Source: Apostichopus japonicus
Lineage: Eukaryota > Echinodermata > Holothuroidea > Aspidochirotida > Stichopodidae
Length of the DNA stretch: 64,000 nt
Direction of reading: 5' to 3'
Assembly: GCF_037975245.1 (NCBI RefSeq)
Contig: NC_092562.1
Coordinates: 2,198,501 to 2,262,500 of the forward strand
Shown here: positions 17,850 to 49,735 of the stretch, in pieces
How positions within the stretch are numbered: position 1 is the stretch's first letter
Layout: each line of letters begins with the position of its first letter
The notes under the pieces: model-generated
The model's database searches: none
The model's input: only the letters and a program-made list of their open reading frames with translations
Told to the model about the DNA's origin: nothing
Translations under genes and position numbers: made by a program

Positions 17850-20800
17850 TAAGCTTTTAAAGCAATTTACCATACATGAGTAAGTTTTCAAAGTTAAGTT
17901 ACAATTATTATTTGTTGCTCAGTGTAGGTTTGAATGAATTGTCTGCTGTTGTGGAAGTTTTTGGATTCCAACAAAGGTGGTAAAGGTTAAAGTACCCAAA
18001 CTTACTATAACTGCCTTGATACTTAAATGTATTTCAAAGGAAATTTAGATACATATTTTGTTTAAAAGTAAATTCATGTCGGATAATCATTCGCAAATTG
18101 ATAAAAATCAGTTTAACACGTCAAGAAAAACGTTCAAGAAAAAGTTACTGAGCTTGTGGAGATACACTCTTTGTCAAGGCCGTTGGTTAATTCAAAAAGT
18201 TAGAGATATTTTGGAGCAGTGTCATGAAAAAGGTTTTCACTTTGTTGAGCAACTTACAAATGCCCTTTTTTCAGGAGTATCCATTTGTGAAGTATCCAGC
18301 CAAGGATATACCGAAATTCTTGCCTCAAATAAATTAAGACAAAAATATGATCAAGAAAATGTTCATGTTGTAAAGGCTCAGGAAATTGCATTGGGAAGGT
18401 ACAATGGTAAACATTCTTTGAAAAAGCAGGTTTCTTTATAGAAACATTGGGGGAAATGTAAAAGGTACTGTAAAATGAAGCTGTGATAACCTTGATGTTC
18501 ACCAAATTGGTGGATTTCTTGAGAGCTTTGGCCGAAATGACCTTATCGAATGTGTATAGCCACCAGCTCTGATTTACAAATCATAGATTTTGCAGCAGAA
18601 AATTGCGAAGTAAAAACAAGGAAAATAACACATACCACAATATTCGAGTGTCAGAGAAGACCCAACATTGTCTAGACTTCATGGTGTTAAATGTGACTGT
18701 GTTTTACATGAGTACTTAGAGCGCTTCCACATAACTAAGGGTCTTCCTTTTGATGTTTCCCATGATCTCTTAGAGGGCAATACACCCTACGATATAGCAC
18801 TTTGTCCTAGCTACTTAATTTCTCCAAAAAAAAACAGATGACTTTGGAATATTTCAACTCTCAGATACAGCATTTTCAGTACAAGCACTCCGATAGAGTA
18901 AATAGACCACAGGTAATTGGACAAAATTACAAGCAAAACAGGTAGTATTGGCGGTAATCAGTCTGAAAATTGGACCTTGCTTCGGTTGATCCCATTATTT
19001 GTGATAGGCTGTGTACCAGAGCAGGACCCAGTACTTGCTGTGATATTACTACATGGAGATATTGTTGAAATTGCCCACAGTTTTCACTGAAGGAACTATT
19101 GTTTCCCTTCAGGCTAAAACAAAGGAATACAAACAGATATTCAAGATGTTAATTCCTGAGGCAAGACTGAAACCTAGGCACCATTTCGTTGAACATTACC
19201 CTGAACAAATAAGGTTATTTGGACCTTTAGTTCAAGTCCCCACAGTACGGTTCGAAGCGAAACACTATTTCTTCAAAAGAATCATTCGAAATATTTATAA
19301 CTTCAAGAATATACTAGCCAATAGGCATCAAATGATGGAAACATATCATTTGGCTTCCCCACATTTCTTTGGCTTACCTGTTGTTGTGGAGAATGTGACA
19401 AGTTTGCCTATTGTATTACTCTCAGAAGTTATGAAGAGTGTTATCCCTAATGTCCTTAATTCTTCCACAATCTCAATTTCAGACAAAGTCTTAGTTCATG
19501 GAACAAAGTATTCCAAAGACATGTCGGTTCTTATTTCTGATGGCTTAGCACAGTTTGCACAGATTTAACCTATACCAGTTAACAAGGATATTGGTTTTGT
19601 GGTCAAATGTTTTGAAAGTAGATTTGCAAAATATATGGGGATTGGGGGCATACATTGTTAAGGAGACAGATAAATTTTATCTAGCCCATCATAGAGACTT
19701 TGCTGATTTATATCCATTGGCATGATATTCAAATCATGGACATAGTTAGGTAGTCGTCAAGCGACAGTATGGAACCTTTGAAATTAAGGTTGATAATTTC
19801 TGCCTCGGAAATCAGGGAGCTCTGCCTTCAGAAGCGCCCAAATTCAGTTGAAAGTTTGAAACAAATAATTGAAAATAAAGAAAACATTAACTATGAGTTT
19901 AATAGACAGTATGCAGATTCAGATTTTGGGGGAGATATGGTAAATTTAGTCATCATTAGTGATTTAGTCCAGAATGTTGCAACAGTTAAAATAGTTCCCA
20001 AAGCAATACCCATCCCTGTACTTTCTCCTCTTGACTTAAGCAGTGCAAGCTGCAGTATTTTTCCTTATGGTAACTCATTAGATGAAAGCTCACAGGATAC
20101 AATGAGTGTCAGTCAGCTCCTCTGATGATATGCAGTCTTTGCATATGAAACTAAGACAGGGTTCATGACCAGAGGTATTTCAACTTTCTAAGCTAATACC
20201 GGAGTTACAGTTATTGTTTGATTTATGTAATGCAAACTACAAATCTACTAAAGATCAACTTGCACTGGGCAAAGGCATGAAAAGCCACTCTTTTGATGCA
20301 ATATCCAATGAAAATATCCAATTTAAAGCCTATCCAACAAACTTGGAGTATATGGATGTTGCAAAGGCAATTCTGGCAAAGAATCAATGTCTGACCCCCC
20401 GATACACACAGAGAACACAGTTACTACTGTAAATCTTACAGTTTTGAACCACAGTAAAAACTGGATCGTGCTATAATTTGGTAGCATGTGCTATTACGAT
20501 TACAGTAAGAACTGAGGATATGTGTTATTCCAACATATCCAGTTGTTGGGGATTTGTTGGAATAACAAATATCCAGTCAGTTCTTACTGTAAACTTAATA
20601 GCACATTCTACCGATTTATCAGATTTGTCAGCACAATCCAGTATTTACTGTGGTACAAATCTTTAGATTTACAGTAGTTACTGTAATCACTATGTGAATC
20701 GGCTGGTCTGACAAAAAAGGGATCTGCATCTGGCTATGATGAACTGGTCAACAGTCTAAAGTTAAAAACGGGCAAAATCTTTGCAAAAGACAAAGCTGGG

Positions 20801-21160
20801 TTGTTTGGAAATGAAGGTCAATTCAAGATAAAGATTGACTACTGGCAGTGAGACATCAACACGAAAACTTAACGACCGAAGAAGGTCGAGTTTACCTACC
20901 TCCCGGGGCTTCTTATGGGTAAACACAACACAACTATGGAAATCTACTGAACCCGTCTTATTACAGAAATGTCAAAAGAGAACAAAAACATGATAACGAT
21001 CCGTTGTCATGTGGGTCTTACATTTGCTTACAGAAGGAGGGAGTTGTTAATGAACACATCACCAGTCAAAGACGTACTTGAACGATGGCCCGTTCTTTTC
21101 CTTGAAAGTGAAGTAAGTGATATTACTTCGGTTAGTGTAACGTTCATTTTTCTGTAATAA
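17850..21160 (+). pseudogene. Transposon-derived two-part cassette (PB1/SAMD3-like), unit 1
   Basis: Two broken reading regions lie on the plus strand. The first (18,058-19,568) includes LHGVK-DCVLHEYLERF, DVSHDLLEG and HHFVEHYPEQI-LFGPL...RFEAKH-FFK. I associate these motifs with a widespread, uncharacterised transposon protein of fish and invertebrates. The second (19,769-21,115) starts with a PB1-like stretch (LRLIISASEIR...), continues with ...RWPVLFLE and resembles proteins annotated SAMD3-like. Stops, frameshifts and a 310-bp hAT-like insertion (20,396-20,705) disrupt it. The 171-codon piece at 19,053-19,568 is still open. Family names are from memory and need a search; the coding nature is clear from frame-preserving similarity to 42,390-44,540. 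Confidence 0.6.
20396..20705. mobile_element. Palindromic hAT-like MITE inside the unit-1 cassette
   Basis: The two halves are long imperfect inverted repeats: TTACTACTGTAAATC near the start has its inverse near the end, and ACAGTAAGAACTGA likewise. The element is flanked by GTCTGAC on both sides (20389-20395 and 20706-20712), or an 8-bp duplication with one mismatch. Unit 2 at 44,131-44,140 has the uninterrupted site. Length is 310 bp. Confidence 0.88.
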
Positions 21161-21573
21161 GTTTTAGCTATATCATATCTATGTTGGATATATTCAAGTT
21201 GCAATGATGATTCTTAATTAATCCAAAACTGAATGCTCACAGTACGTGCTACTAAATTGCATTTTTGGTAATGTTCATTGGACTTGTAAATAATTATGAA
21301 TCCTACATTGTCAAAAACTGCAGATGCTTGGAAGCTTCCACAAAATTACATTTACGATCACCATTTTATCTTTGTAACCATAACTTTGAAACAACACTGA
21401 TATGAACATTGACTTTACTTGGAATTTGCTTTAAACAAGATATCCATAGTATTTGTGGCTAAATGTGTAAGACAGCTTTGACTCCTTACATGAGTGATCA
21501 TTTTGGACAGTCAAAGAGTAAAACTTCAAAAATAAGAAATCTTCCAAGAGAGACGATAACCCTAATTGGAATT

Positions 21574-21610
21574 GGCGTATTACCCAACTGTTATGATTGG
21601 GTAATACGCC
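21574..21610. repeat. Perfect 14-bp hairpin at the left edge of the hammerhead dimer
   Basis: The left arm GGCGTATTACCCAA (21574-21587) and right arm (21597-21610) are exact reverse complements around a 9-nt loop. A related word, TTGGGTAATATGCC, recurs at 21,918-21,931 before monomer 2. The right arm is therefore part of the monomer, and the left arm is an inverted copy at the junction. Confidence 0.85.
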
Positions 21611-21726
21611 TTGAAAAACAGTTATACAAAACCAATTTATATGCATTCACACACCAGTAGAATCACTGTGGTCGAGTGTTATGGACTTAGGTCTGTGATA
21701 CAAGATCCGGGGGTTCGATTCCTACC

Positions 21727-21766
21727 TTCGCCTGATTAGTCCCAAAAGGACGAAACCGGTCGTAAA
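21727..21766 (+). ncRNA. Degenerate hammerhead ribozyme (G8 mutated)
   Basis: This has the same layout as 22,051-22,090. The core reads CTGATTA at 21732-21738, so the catalytic G8 is U in RNA. Stem II, GAA, stem III ACC/GGT and the GTC triplet (cut would be after 21761) are intact, but stem I is weakened on its 3' side (GTAAA). G8 acts as general acid in hammerhead catalysis, so this copy should be inactive. Confidence 0.8.
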
Positions 21767-22050
21767 GTGGAATTTTTCTAGTGTTTATAATTTATTTATT
21801 TACTATAAATCTGTTATACCACTTCTTATTTACGGCTTGGCTTGCCTAAAAGAGTGGTTATTCTGTGTAGATTGTCAGATTCAAAGCACCAGGGGTGCAC
21901 TCTGTACAATCATATCACTTGGGTAATATGCCCTCAATGATAGTTATACCGCAAAGCCAATTTATACGCATTCACACTCCAGTAGAATCACTGTGGTCGA
22001 GTGGCACGGACTTCGTTCTGTGACACAAGATCCGGGGTTCGATTACTACC

Positions 22051-22090
22051 TTCGCCTGATGAGTCCCAAAAGGACGAAACCGGTCGTGAG
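22051..22090 (+). ncRNA. Hammerhead ribozyme, type I with minimal stem III (complete core)
   Basis: In order: stem I 5' strand TTCGC (22051-22055); core CTGATGA (22056-22062; C3 U4 G5 A6 U7 G8 A9); stem II GTCC-CAAAA-GGAC (22063-22075); core GAA (22076-22078); stem III ACC/GGT with no loop; cleavage triplet GTC with the cut after 22085; stem I 3' strand GTGAG (22086-22090). All invariant bases are present. Stem I has five pairs, two of them G-U. The loopless stem III resembles the schistosome and newt hammerheads, which often cleave well only as dimers. The expected product is self-cleavage of a pol III-type transcript into a unit of about 324 nt. Activity is inferred, not shown. Confidence 0.85.
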
Positions 22091-23164
22091 ATTTTCTGGT
22101 GTGTTATTCTTTATTAATTTACTATATTAATATAAATGTTTATATATGTTTATATATATATTATTATTATTATTAGAGAAAACCAGAGAAATAAGATATG
22201 ACTCATAATTGACAAATAAAGGAGTAAAGTTTTAGAAAATATATTGGAATATACTTGGCAGTCGAATGAAAAGTACAAAATGTAACACAATGAAATTATG
22301 ACGCTAGATAGGTGTAAGTTGCATTGATGGAATTAAAACCAAATAAACCATGACTATACAGGAAGCGGATTAAGGAGCAAAGAACGGATTAAATATGCTC
22401 TACGGTCACCGACAGAGTACATTGTTTGGAAACACACACTTGATGGTCTAATTTTTTGTTTCCTCAATGGATGAAGAAACTTCTAGCGGTTTTGAAGTTT
22501 TTCAGCAATTCCTAAATGTGCTACAATTGCCATCCCCAGAAATCGGGAGACTAGGATAGTACAGGGAGAATTTGGCAAAATTCAATAGTGTAATGCAAGG
22601 TAGCGATGTAAAAAGTAACAAAGAAACATTTTTTGGTTCTGGAAACGTCACCAATGCGAAAATATAGGTTACCCAAGAGTAATTCCCACTGTAACACTTA
22701 AAGCACTCCGGAACGGAAAGATATGACTGTTGGCTAAAACGGGACGATCCTACTATTCATAGCTTTGTTAGGGGAGCCAGTCAGAAAGAAGATTACCTTG
22801 CATACAAAGTAACCAGGGGTCACGCTATAGTGTAATTTGATTCAATCCAAAAGGGATTTCAAGAGACATTTTTTTTTCATTATATTTTCTATGTCTCGCT
22901 ATTGTTCATTAACTGATATCATATAATAAACCAGATAGTCAAGTAACTTAGTGTTACTTTGCAAATATGAAAAGAAACTTAAGATGTACACAATTTCTAA
23001 CGAACTGAATTGCTGAGCAGAAATGGCAAGTCTTGCAGAATTGATTAATGCGTCCCTATGCAAAGAGGGTTGAAGGTCAAACAAACTTCTCTTCTGCATA
23101 ATCATACTTATACATGCAATTCACCATAAACGGCTTGGACCTTCACGAAAACAATATGGATCAT

Positions 23165-23300
23165 CTACTCACCAAAGGCTACCAACACAGTTACCAAGTT
23201 TAAAGTTCAAGCAACTTTTACTTCTTGAGATATCGAGTTTACAAGGGTTTCAGCCTTTGACCTCTGGTGCCTACAATGACCTTTGACCTTTTTGATATGT
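23165..23300. repeat. Single DR1-type repeat unit (unit 2 left edge)
   Basis: The exact TGACCTTTGACCT is at 23,277-23,289, preceded by CTTGAGATATCGAGTTTACAAG. It lies beyond the 3' end of scramblase copy 2. Confidence 0.78.
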
Positions 23301-23984
23301 CTAAATTGTTCGTTTACTAATACTATATAATACAAAAATAATTCTTTGTTTTAAAGCACGTTTCACTGGATATCATCTCTTAAAATTTACACTCTATAGT
23401 TTCATATGAAGATTTTTTTGTGACACTTCAAAGACTGGCATCTGTGCAGTTACTAACCTCTACAGTCTACACCGTTTATTAATTACAGATTAATTATAAT
23501 ATAATAAAGGTAATCAAGCCTCCAAATCAAAGACAGAACTTCCTTCAAACCAGGTTTAAATATTATATACATTTAAAAGATAATTTTAAAATAAATTCCG
23601 ATTTTTAATCTCAAAGCAGCATTAAGCTCATGTAGGACATTCATTTCATTTCATTAACTTGTTTCTCATCAATATACAGGTTTAACAATCAAAAGTTACT
23701 ACCATAAATGTAAATACAACGTGGATGGAAGTGGCCAAGAAAACATTGCAACGCTTAACGAGTAGTGCCACTCCCTTTGCAAAGGAAAAAACAAAACAAA
23801 AAACCAAAACCAACCGCCCCAACACTCCCGAGGAAAAAGAAAGTAAGAATGATCGTAACATATTGAGAAAAAAAGTCAACTGGAATGAGCCACATATCTA
23901 AGATATTTCTAACAAATTTCTTGTAGCCCAACAATCCATTTTACCATCAAATGTAATTAAATTCTCGACACACCTTGCACTTTC

Positions 23985-24375
23985 TGCAGTGGTGTGAACA
24001 CACGCATACTATCTTATACTACGAGAGATGGTCAACATGGTGGTGTGAACACACCATACTATCTCATACTATGTGGATGGTAAACTTAGTTCTGTTACAC
24101 ACGCGTACTACCTCAAACTACGAGAGATGGTCAACATGGCGGTGTGAACACACCATACTATCTCATACTACGGGGGATGGTCAATTTAGGAGTGCGAACA
24201 CACGCGTAATAGCTCATACTATGAGGGATGGTATAGATGGTGATGTGAACACACCATACAATCGCATACTACGGAGGATGGTCAACTTAGTGGTTTGAAC
24301 ACACGCGTACTACCTCATTCTACGAGAGATGGTCAATATGGTGGTGTAAGCACACGCGTACTCAGGATTGGACAA
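23985..24375. repeat. 49-bp minisatellite, unit 2 first array
   Basis: About seven to eight repeats of the 49-50-bp family. It ends in a truncated copy of the Gly-rich end of the scramblase last exon (24,376-24,440). Confidence 0.9.
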
Positions 24376-25006: not shown

Positions 25007-26630
25007 TTGACCGACTTGGTGCAATATAATATGAACTTGAATGAAAACAACCAACAGAATTACCGTCCGATTTCGAACCTGAAGTTCATCTTTAAGACTA
25101 TAGAGCGAGCATCCGCTGCCCAAATCAATGATTACCTCCAACGGGAGGGTTTGTATGCCCCGAAACAATCCGCGAACCGTAAGCACCACAGCACTGAGAC
25201 AGCTATGCTTCGTATACAGAATGATCTCTTGGAAGCTGTCGATCAATGTCAAGAAGCTGTGCTGGTTTTATTGGATTTCTCTGCGGCCTTCGACACAATC
25301 GATCACGACATCATACTTGAACGTCTTCAGAACCGCTACGGTATTCTTGCCACAGCTCGGAAGTGGTTCGAATCCTATTTGAGGGGTCGTAGTTTTTATG
25401 TAAATATAAAAGGAGCCCGCTCTATCCCGCGTAACCTGAATGACGGCGTGCCACAATGCTCCGTACTGGGACCATCCATTTTCGCCTTGTATATTGCTCC
25501 ACTTGGGGACATCGTCTCCGCTCATGGTATAGATTATATGTCCTACGCCGACGATACCCAACTGTATCTTACCTTAAGTCCTGGTAACCGTGAAATTTCG
25601 ATATCTCGTCTGGAGTCCTGCATACGTGACATTAAGTTCTGGAGCATACAGAACAAATTAATGTTCAATGAATCTAAAACAGAGGTCCTGCATATCTCTT
25701 CGAAATTCCTGAAGTGCCCAACATCACCTAAAATTGCAGTTGATGATTCATTCGTTGACACTGTATTGAAAGCTAAGAGCCTCGGAGTCATCGTTGATTG
25801 TAACCTCAACATGAAACATCATGTGAAGAACACCGCCTCCGCAGCTTCATTCGCATTATACAAGATCGGACAACTCGCCAAATACCTCGACCACAAATCT
25901 ACCGAACGACTCGTCCACGCATTCATTACGTCCCGCTTGGACTACTGCAACAGCCTCCTGTACGGCATTCCATCCACTGAACTTTCCAAACTTCAGCTCA
26001 TTCAGAACTCGGCCGCCCGTCTTGTCACACGTTCCAAGAAGCACGACCATATTACTCCAATCCTCCGTGATCTGCACTGGCTGCCCCTCCATCTTCGCAT
26101 TCGTTACAAAGTTGCCCTTCTTGCCTTCAAAGCTATTCACGGAATGGCCCCTAGTTATCTGACGGACCTCGTCGCTTCCTACTCACCACAACGTCGTCTC
26201 CGCTCGTCGTCCGAAACCCTTCTATGTCGTCCTCGCAGGTGCAACACTAGATTCTACGGAGACAGATGTTTCAGCGCTGCAGCTCCCAATTTCTGGAACA
26301 ATTTGCCTTGGGACTTTCGTGAAGCACCTCATCTTAACCGTTTTAAGAAAGATTTGAAAACTTACCTTTTTAGCTGTTTTTAACTGTCACAGTATTTGCT
26401 TCTTTTTATATGGTTACTAGTTTGCTTTTTAGCCTGTTTTATTTTTGTAGGTTACTATAGTCTTATCCTCTTAGCTGTTTTATCTGTATATTGTATTTCG
26501 TATCTTTTTGAGTTTGCATCTTTTGGTTTCTTAGCCTGGTTTTTCTGTTGATGACTTTCTTTTTACTGTACAGCGCTTCGAGATTTTTGGGAGGCGCTAT
26601 ATAAGTAGTATTTATTATTATTATTATATG
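25007..26630 (+). mobile_element. 5'-truncated CR1/L2-like LINE with 3' tail
   Basis: The insertion keeps the reverse transcriptase part and the 3' UTR of a non-LTR retrotransposon. The 3' end has the typical ending GGCGCTATATAAG followed by an ATT-rich microsatellite tail at about 26,600-26,628. No endonuclease domain is present upstream, so the element is 5' truncated, as expected for target-primed reverse transcription. It sits inside the 3' flank of scramblase copy 2, between two parts of the 49-bp minisatellite region. The exact left edge is uncertain (24,950-25,020). Confidence 0.85.
25031..26386 (+). CDS. Non-LTR reverse transcriptase (LINE ORF2 fragment)
   Basis: This is an open frame of about 450 codons. 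The first internal Met is at 25031; coding similarity starts slightly upstream, so the true N-terminus is missing. Reverse-transcriptase blocks are visible in order: YRPISNL, the first catalytic region DFSAAFDTID, GVPQCSVLGP, and YADDTQLY at 25,544-25,567 with the catalytic DD pair. After these come the thumb region and a C-terminal region (HWLPLHLRIRYK) typical of CR1/L2-group elements. The residue before SVLG in the PQ-S motif is Cys (codon at 25457) where Gly is almost invariant. This could impair activity. There are no stops or frameshifts over the whole stretch, so the insertion is young compared with the other LINE pieces here. Confidence 0.9.
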
Positions 26631-27314: not shown

Positions 27315-27505
27315 AGGGGTTGGTCAACTTAGTGGTGTTAACACACGCGTACTACCTCATACTACGAGAGGTGGTCAATATGGTGGTGTGAATACACCAT
27401 ACTATCTCATACTACGAGGGATGGTCAACTTAGTGGTGTGAACACACCATACTATCTCATACTACGAGGGATGGTCAACATGGTGGTGTGAACACATGCG
27501 TACTC
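27315..27505. repeat. 49-bp minisatellite, unit 2 second array
   Basis: About four repeats of the same family, adjacent to the complete last exon of scramblase copy 2. Confidence 0.9.
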
Positions 27506-41174: not shown

Positions 41175-41630
<456 letters not shown>

Positions 41631-48880: not shown

Positions 48881-49384
48881 TTTAATGCAGGTTTCACTGG
48901 ATATCTTCTCTTAAACTTTGCACCCTTTGAACAGACGCTATAGTTTCAAATGAAGATTTTCTGTGATACTTCAAAGACTGACATTCTGTACAGATGCTAA
49001 TCTCTACATCATTAATTAATTACAGATTAATTATAATATTATTAAAGGTAACCAAGCCTCCAAATCCAAGACAGAACTTCCTTCAAACCAGGTTTCAATA
49101 TTATATACATTTGAAAAATAATTTTCATATGAATCCCATTTTTTAATCTTAAAGCAGCATTAAGCTCATATATAAGCTTATATATAGGCTTAGGACATTC
49201 AATATGTCTACCAAATTTATTCTGAACCAACAATCCATTTTTAGCGTCAAATATCAGGTAATTAATTCTCAACCTACCTTGCACTTACTGTATTTGAAGT
49301 ACAACAAAAGCAAGAAGAGACAAAGCCTCACATATTTACCTGAAGCCTTGTCCACATTTGATCAATGCAAGGAGGACCTCGTAC

Positions 49385-49735
49385 TACAATGGATGGTCAA
49401 CAGGGTGGTGTGAACACACCATACTATCTCATACTACAGGGGATGGTCAACTTAGTGGTGTGAACACACGTGTACTATCTCATACTAAGAGGCATGGTCA
49501 ACATGGTGGTGTGAACACACCATACTACTGGGGATGGTCAACTTAGTGGTGTGAACACATGCGTACTATCTCATACTACGAAAGATGGTCAACATGGTGG
49601 TGTGAACACACCATACTATCTCATACTGCGAAGGATGGTCAACTTAGTGGTGTAAACAGACGCGTACTATCTCATACTACGGGGGATGGTCAACTTAGTG
49701 GCGTACTCAGGATCGGACACTGTTATTATGATCTC
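49385..49735. repeat. 49-bp minisatellite, unit 3
   Basis: About seven repeats. In this unit about 1.1 kb separates it from the last scramblase exon, unlike units 1 and 2. Confidence 0.9.

Follow-up and report, generated by a model that had tools for sequence, protein, structure and literature searches.

The genome of Apostichopus japonicus contains a short, dispersed, non-coding repeat in which polymerase III (pol III)–type promoter boxes are joined directly to a hammerhead ribozyme, and whose copies end preferentially at two internal positions next to (TA)n tracts. This repeat is probably a non-autonomous, SINE-like animal retrozyme that is copied from a circular or multi-unit RNA template and inserted by a Penelope-like enzyme with reverse transcriptase (RT) and GIY-YIG activities. 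The insertion footprint, comprising the TA target, the two 3′ ends and priming on both strands, is more informative than the anatomy of the boxes and the ribozyme.

Anatomy of the repeat in the window and in the genome

The window, as used here, is the whole analyzed stretch of 64,000 nucleotides. In it, the repeat forms an array at 21597–22127 on the forward strand, which corresponds to 1.58 units of the dispersed repeat by BLAST against the genomic unit (L001 1538–2068). Positions within the unit are given on a genomic ruler of 337 nt, with the ribozyme cut at unit 161. The array ends 3′ at unit 209 with AT-rich DNA beyond, and its units are 324 nt long compared to about 337 nt genomically. 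At the 5′ junction lies a short inverted unit piece (21574–21599, reverse strand) that is 88% complementary to 21907–21932.

Both copies in the array, all on the forward strand, carry the same series of elements. In copy 1, box A (TGGTCGAGTGT, 21669–21679), whose final base is off the consensus, is followed by box B (GGTTCGATTCC, 21712–21722) and a hammerhead at 21715–21782, cut after 21761. In copy 2, box A (TGGTCGAGTGG, 21994–22004) is followed by box B (GGTTCGATTAC, 22036–22046), which has one mismatch, and a hammerhead at 22038–22105, cut after 22085. The layout proposed in the first-pass annotation is real, since the gaps between the boxes are 32 nt in copy 1 and 31 nt in copy 2, the hammerhead core begins 9 nt past box B in both copies, and the distance measured between the cut sites is 324 nt (21762–22085). 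The same annotation described two full hammerheads; the layout is present in both, but each ribozyme is damaged. The core of copy 1 is CTGATTA (21732–21738), in which G8 is changed, and copy 2, with an intact CTGATGA core (22056–22062), has lost about 6 nt of the outer 3′ strand of helix I. In a tested hammerhead of a Penelope-like element (PLE), mutation of G8 abolished cleavage (PMC11167929). Because ribozyme 1 lacks G8, the window locus is unlikely to be cut twice, and the proposed release of a 324-nt circle from this array is not supported by the sequence of its two ribozymes, one without G8 and the other with a partial helix I. Other loci of the repeat are a plausible source of the circle.

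The dispersed nature of the repeat, which had been only suspected, was borne out in a search of the whole genome (671,581,487 bases, 35 contigs). A 30-nt hammerhead pattern matched 576 genomic copies with at most three mismatches, and the reversed control pattern matched none; a pattern with free letters in stem II gave 257 matches compared to 0 for its control. The exact pattern of box A, a spacer of 25 to 36 nt and box B was found as 223 pairs, again with no match to the reversed pattern, and among the matches listed (100 of the 223), all resembled this repeat family by eye. The reading as a dispersed, multi-copy retroposon with pol III–type boxes fused to a hammerhead is supported. In a set of 56 hammerheads with an array extending upstream (12 of 68 distinct hammerheads were excluded as truncated or split), both boxes were present with at most one mismatch each in 47, compared to none of 1360 shuffles, and both were perfect in 25. 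The composition-based expectation for such a pair is approximately 5e-7 per unit. Box pairs 205 bp apart, which could represent a shortened unit, were seen at G000 C9:34929067–34929325 and near 34937214, 35006439 and 35583314.

The boxes and the ribozyme share sequence. GATTCC of box B doubles as the outer 5′ strand of helix I, where it pairs with GGAATT, and this dual use ties promoter and ribozyme together. Descent from a tRNA found no support in the sequence. ARAGORN called no tRNA within the window and none inside the element at 25 loci (its sole call, a tRNA-Cys at L016, lies outside the element), and Rfam gave no tRNA match in 20500–23500; by these searches the boxes appear to belong to no recognizable tRNA.

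The boxes suggest that the repeat may be transcribed by pol III. A run of at least four T residues is a likely pol III terminator. Among 100 matched copies, with duplicates kept in, 89 have such a run downstream of the ribozyme, and in the window a candidate terminator, TTTTT, lies at 21773–21777 on the forward strand. These T-runs argue against simple pol III multimers. They speak for a different template, an uncut multimer produced by pol II read-through, in which the hammerhead and the boxes would be passengers or would act only after insertion. This alternative deserves serious weight, even if we lean away from it. It leaves the conservation of both parts to be explained: besides the boxes kept in 47 of 56 arrays, a set of 39 hammerheads chosen without a hammerhead match includes 24 with all core residues intact, although recent common descent could also account for this conservation.

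Several other features of the window were recorded. A CTGATGA–stem–GAAAC string at 20122–20150 passes a simple hammerhead scan and is probably a chance occurrence (approximately 0.5 expected per shuffled window). A long hairpin at 20507–20585, with weak matches to several unrelated Rfam hairpin families, is perhaps a small inverted-repeat element. Small arrays of one unit of about 50 bp with GGTGTGAACACACC-like palindromes lie at 1524–1670, 23989–24362, 27317–27496 and 49378–49701, and a perfect (GAAA)114 tract spans 41175–41630.

Structure and conservation of the hammerhead

In a search of 3 kb, the Rfam model Hammerhead_HH9 (RF02275) matched copy 1 with E 4.3e-5 (30.9 bits) and copy 2 with E 1.4e-4 (29.3 bits). 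Both scores lie under the curated gathering cut-off of 52 bits; the Rfam check suggested at first pass thus returned matches, but no hit above threshold in the strict sense. Genome-wide, the best of 55 matches reached 47 bits, also under the cut-off (58 candidates scored of 44310). At a lax E ≤10, matches also arose in 11 of 14 prokaryote genomes used as controls, none above the cut-off. The higher-scoring matches were considered as a separate family, and three of three that were fetched proved to be copies of this element in which the loop is longer. The hammerhead pattern had no exact match in collections of viral and prokaryote contigs, a result that says nothing on animals.

The low Rfam score is likely due to the form of helix III, which consists of ACC and GGT without a loop, so that a single RNA cannot close it. 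Two RNA copies could form a palindromic stem III of 6 bp, and cofolding of two copies predicts that structure. The palindrome ACCGGT lies at 22079–22084 and at 21755–21760 on the forward strand, and is present in 59 of 68 distinct hammerheads. From this model and by analogy, the ribozyme reads as a dimer-type minimal hammerhead of type I. A dimer-type minimal hammerhead was reportedly described by Lunse in 2017, and minimal hammerheads with a very short stem III are on record in the accessible part of the literature.

Across the 68 distinct hammerheads, 91.9% of the cells in the helices are paired, compared to 38–50% when the strands are slid against each other. Double-sided changes were found in 7 cells across three pairs, and the covariation score was equalled by 2 of 500 shuffles. 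The covariation anticipated in the first-pass annotation was visible in these two measures, but the number of covarying pairs (equalled by 196 of 500 shuffles) and the number of pair types (172 of 500) were no better than in shuffles. Differences in stem II among the matches to the free-stem-II pattern are mainly single changes. Covariation is weak, as a young family would give. The evidence from the family as a whole outweighs the sub-threshold Rfam scores.

Two further structures were considered but abandoned. An extended closing stem, joining sequence 5′ of box A with sequence 3′ of the ribozyme, paired in 299 of 352 cells compared to 299.4 in shuffles (32 of 46 monomers parsed), and a hairpin in the head of the element gave no covariation (91 of 96 compared to 91.1, in 16 distinct forms).

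Insertion footprint and the form of the template

The ends of the repeat were mapped on the unit for 93 distinct pieces from 80 loci (L001–L080) of the at least 576 hammerheads; 70 of the 80 loci contributed. Loci L001–L030 were drawn from 54 matches to a 551-base query taken from the window, and L031–L080 are exact hammerhead matches among the matches listed (100 places), which biases hammerhead conservation there. Matches of less than 72% identity, overlapping matches and duplicate pieces were dropped, and L089–L091 were left out of the counts. Multimers, predicted at a spacing of about 324 bp, do occur: 39 of 93 pieces exceed one unit (about 337 nt), and the longest reaches approximately three units.

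The 3′ ends fall into two clusters, at unit 207–211 in 33 of 93 pieces and at unit 244–248 in 22, compared to 2.8 expected for both together; the other 38 lie outside. The clusters are about 37 nt apart, and lie 50 and 87 nt beyond the ribozyme cut. A (TA)n tract adjoins 30 of 33 ends in the first cluster and 17 of 22 in the second (47 of 55), compared to 12 of 38 non-clustered 3′ ends and 20 of 93 5′ flanks. Microhomology with TA blurs the end base, and the start ranges are given as unit 204–211 and 238–248. Insertion into (TA)n also makes target site duplications unreadable.

The 5′ ends are scattered over the unit and do not accumulate at the ribozyme cut, where 2 of 93 lie (2.5 expected). 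Linear cut monomers would have produced such an accumulation and were rejected as the template. Of the 55 pieces with clustered ends, none stops at the cut site; 46 continue past it, 14 of them twice. The template was therefore generally a circle or an uncut multimer rather than a cut linear monomer. An uncut pol II read-through multimer would show the same passage of the cut site, and this result is a second point on its side.

Seventeen head-to-head joints with an inverted piece were found, and in nine of them both outer ends lie at start sites. Eight of these nine informative joints combine one 211-type end with one 248-type end, compared to approximately 4.3 of 9 expected by hand calculation from the 33:22 mix.

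Two other routes to such copies were weighed against this footprint. The first is spread at the DNA level, as a satellite or by segmental duplication, with no RNA involved. Tandem units are present, and segmental copies occur (the overlapping L003 and L008, L005–L007, and L025 and L026), but many flanks are unrelated, the 3′ ends are fixed and the 5′ ends scattered, and the longest piece has only about three units. This route is disfavored by the end statistics, and we consider it very improbable. The second is a LINE-type enzyme acting by target-primed reverse transcription with twin priming at (TA)n. Fixed 3′ ends, scattered 5′ ends and inverted joints also suit LINEs, and copies of the repeat fit that description; furthermore, the window itself holds an RVT_1 open reading frame that is LINE-like by eye (25007–26383, 458 aa, E 3e-27). 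A LINE remains an unlikely agent in view of the two internal starts about 37 nt apart, the lack of any end at the template cut and the (TA)n target that the repeat has in common with PLEs.

We favor a mechanism in which a Penelope-like enzyme is the agent. The unit would comprise, in order, the pol III–type boxes, a hammerhead that uses the end of box B in helix I, an AT-rich stretch with two RT starts, and the remainder. A circular or multi-unit RNA would be taken up by a Penelope-like RT/GIY-YIG enzyme, which would open a (TA)n tract. The cDNA would begin within the RNA, at about unit 204–211 or 238–248, pass the ribozyme site for up to approximately three units and end anywhere. Both target strands would sometimes be primed, giving head-to-head copies.

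Penelope-like elements and known relatives

Published work on PAc, a PLE of Anolis, offers a close parallel. In PAc, reverse transcription has two internal starting points on the RNA, which bound a "tail" of 30–40 bp; the hammerhead cuts at +26 and the main start lies at +111–118 in the ORF, 85–92 nt away; and the target is AT-rich, with both strands cut and extended (PMC11167929). The two internal starts, the AT-rich target and the extension of both strands in the repeat match this published PLE, and the starts of the repeat likewise lie 30–40 nt apart. Like PAc, the repeat also has a minimal hammerhead and partial tandems; it differs in having no protein, a pol III–type head and a unit of about 337 nt (PMC11167929). 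Ribozyme cleavage was dispensable for PAc insertion in vitro (PMC11167929), which also favors the pol II read-through template. No ORF of at least 110 aa overlaps the repeat, so that it lacks an RT and GIY-YIG protein; it is thus not itself a PLE and can at most be a user of one.

Open reading frames with RVT_1 and GIY-YIG, which mark PLEs, are present in the A. japonicus genome. In one PLE family, 40 scored copies (of 1003 candidates) are all 99–100% identical over 301 bases of the 3′ region, and a tandem spacing of 3143 bp occurs at three places (L088, L092–L095; G000 C7:17879971, C17:6639840 and C3:19098390). From this near-identity, the family has probably been active recently. Its 3′ end, CCGTTATTCC, enters (TA)n at five of five non-tandem ends, the sixth being a tandem joint.

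Several observations count against a PLE as the agent. First, 38 of the 93 3′ ends are scattered. Second, comparison of the repeat with eight PLE loci revealed no common 3′ sequence, just short chance matches, and because of this the PLE partner is deduced from target and footprint. Third, a TA tract of at least 12 is present at five of eight GIY-YIG loci and absent at three. Fourth, none of the PLE loci searched with Rfam gave a hammerhead match, and our own motif scan, which gives 0.5 chance matches per shuffled 64 kb, found a hammerhead-like motif in the PLE family and L082. A different hammerhead-like motif (CTGAAGA…GAAAC, with arms TAGTTGT and ACAACTA) lies at L084:2227–2275 between two TA tracts, just beyond a PLE 3′ end, and perhaps marks another TA-inserted ribozyme element.

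The joints of mixed type suggested a more specific version, a PLE-dependent SINE: a pol III–headed RNA with a PLE cassette, inserted by the PLE at (TA)n from a circle, with one start for each target strand. We put this forward as a tentative possibility. The idea of one start site per strand is weakened because the study of PAc detected no strand difference in the start site (PMC11167929).

Compared to known elements, the repeat shows both shared and distinctive features. The Sm-alpha and Sj-alpha repeats of schistosomes were reportedly described by Ferbeyre in 1998 and Laha in 2000. According to the accessible parts of later papers, these are SINE-like repeats with hammerheads, and Sm-alpha is tRNA-Gln-TTG-like (PMC2770079, PMC8490949). 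The present repeat resembles them, as described there, in being dispersed and SINE-like, of similar size (theirs 335 bp) and equipped with a type I hammerhead; it is set apart by phylum, by the palindromic loop-less helix III and by having no recognizable tRNA origin. Internal boxes A and B are shared with tRNA-derived SINEs, and recognizable tRNA homology was not found. As far as its available description goes, newt satellite 2 is similar in that its hammerhead is predicted to work as a dimer with an elongated helix III, and differs in sequence, host and pol III boxes.

Metazoan non-LTR retrozymes, as described in the accessible text of Cervera and de la Pena (2020, PMC7229834), are non-coding, tandem or monomeric, 150–450 bp long and below 50% GC, with a type I hammerhead. 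The repeat (GC 0.41) agrees with this class as a short, non-coding, multi-copy tandem repeat whose hammerhead is of type I by layout, helices and dimer fold, with sub-threshold Rfam scores; it differs from the retrozymes in that text by its boxes joined to the ribozyme, by its defined TA target and by the two positions at which its copies end 3′. The terms "pol III", "polymerase III" and "SINE" do not occur in the accessible text, which put PLEs forward as strong candidates to mobilize animal retrozymes (PMC7229834). The accessible part of a review of the same year noted that retrozyme repeats lack a conserved motif pointing to an autonomous element (PMC7761336).

Retrozymes are known, in the sources available, from many animal phyla; typical of the metazoan class are self-cleaved RNAs, both linear and circular, and, in some cases, target site duplications. 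The accessible part of the A. japonicus assembly paper puts SINEs at 0.02% of the genome and contains neither "hammerhead" nor "Penelope" (PMC10344927). In a literature search mostly of papers outside subscription, no hammerhead SINE or retrozyme was recognized in echinoderms, nor was any insertion footprint found that ties an animal retrozyme to PLE machinery. The first-pass suggestion that the arrangement may be undescribed stands for echinoderms within that search but not more broadly, given the partly available accounts of Sm-alpha and Sj-alpha. The combination is not categorically new, as schistosome hammerhead SINEs, animal retrozymes and the proposal of a PLE helper precede it.

What the repeat adds is a family of several hundred copies whose footprint, in the mapped sample, is indicative of Penelope-like machinery; the same genome carries near-identical PLEs that were probably active recently. 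A PLE-dependent SINE, if true, would provide direct genomic evidence of what mobilizes an animal retrozyme and would explain why PLEs have a "tail". With this family, the question of what mobilizes retrozymes becomes testable with a single RNA and a single protein.
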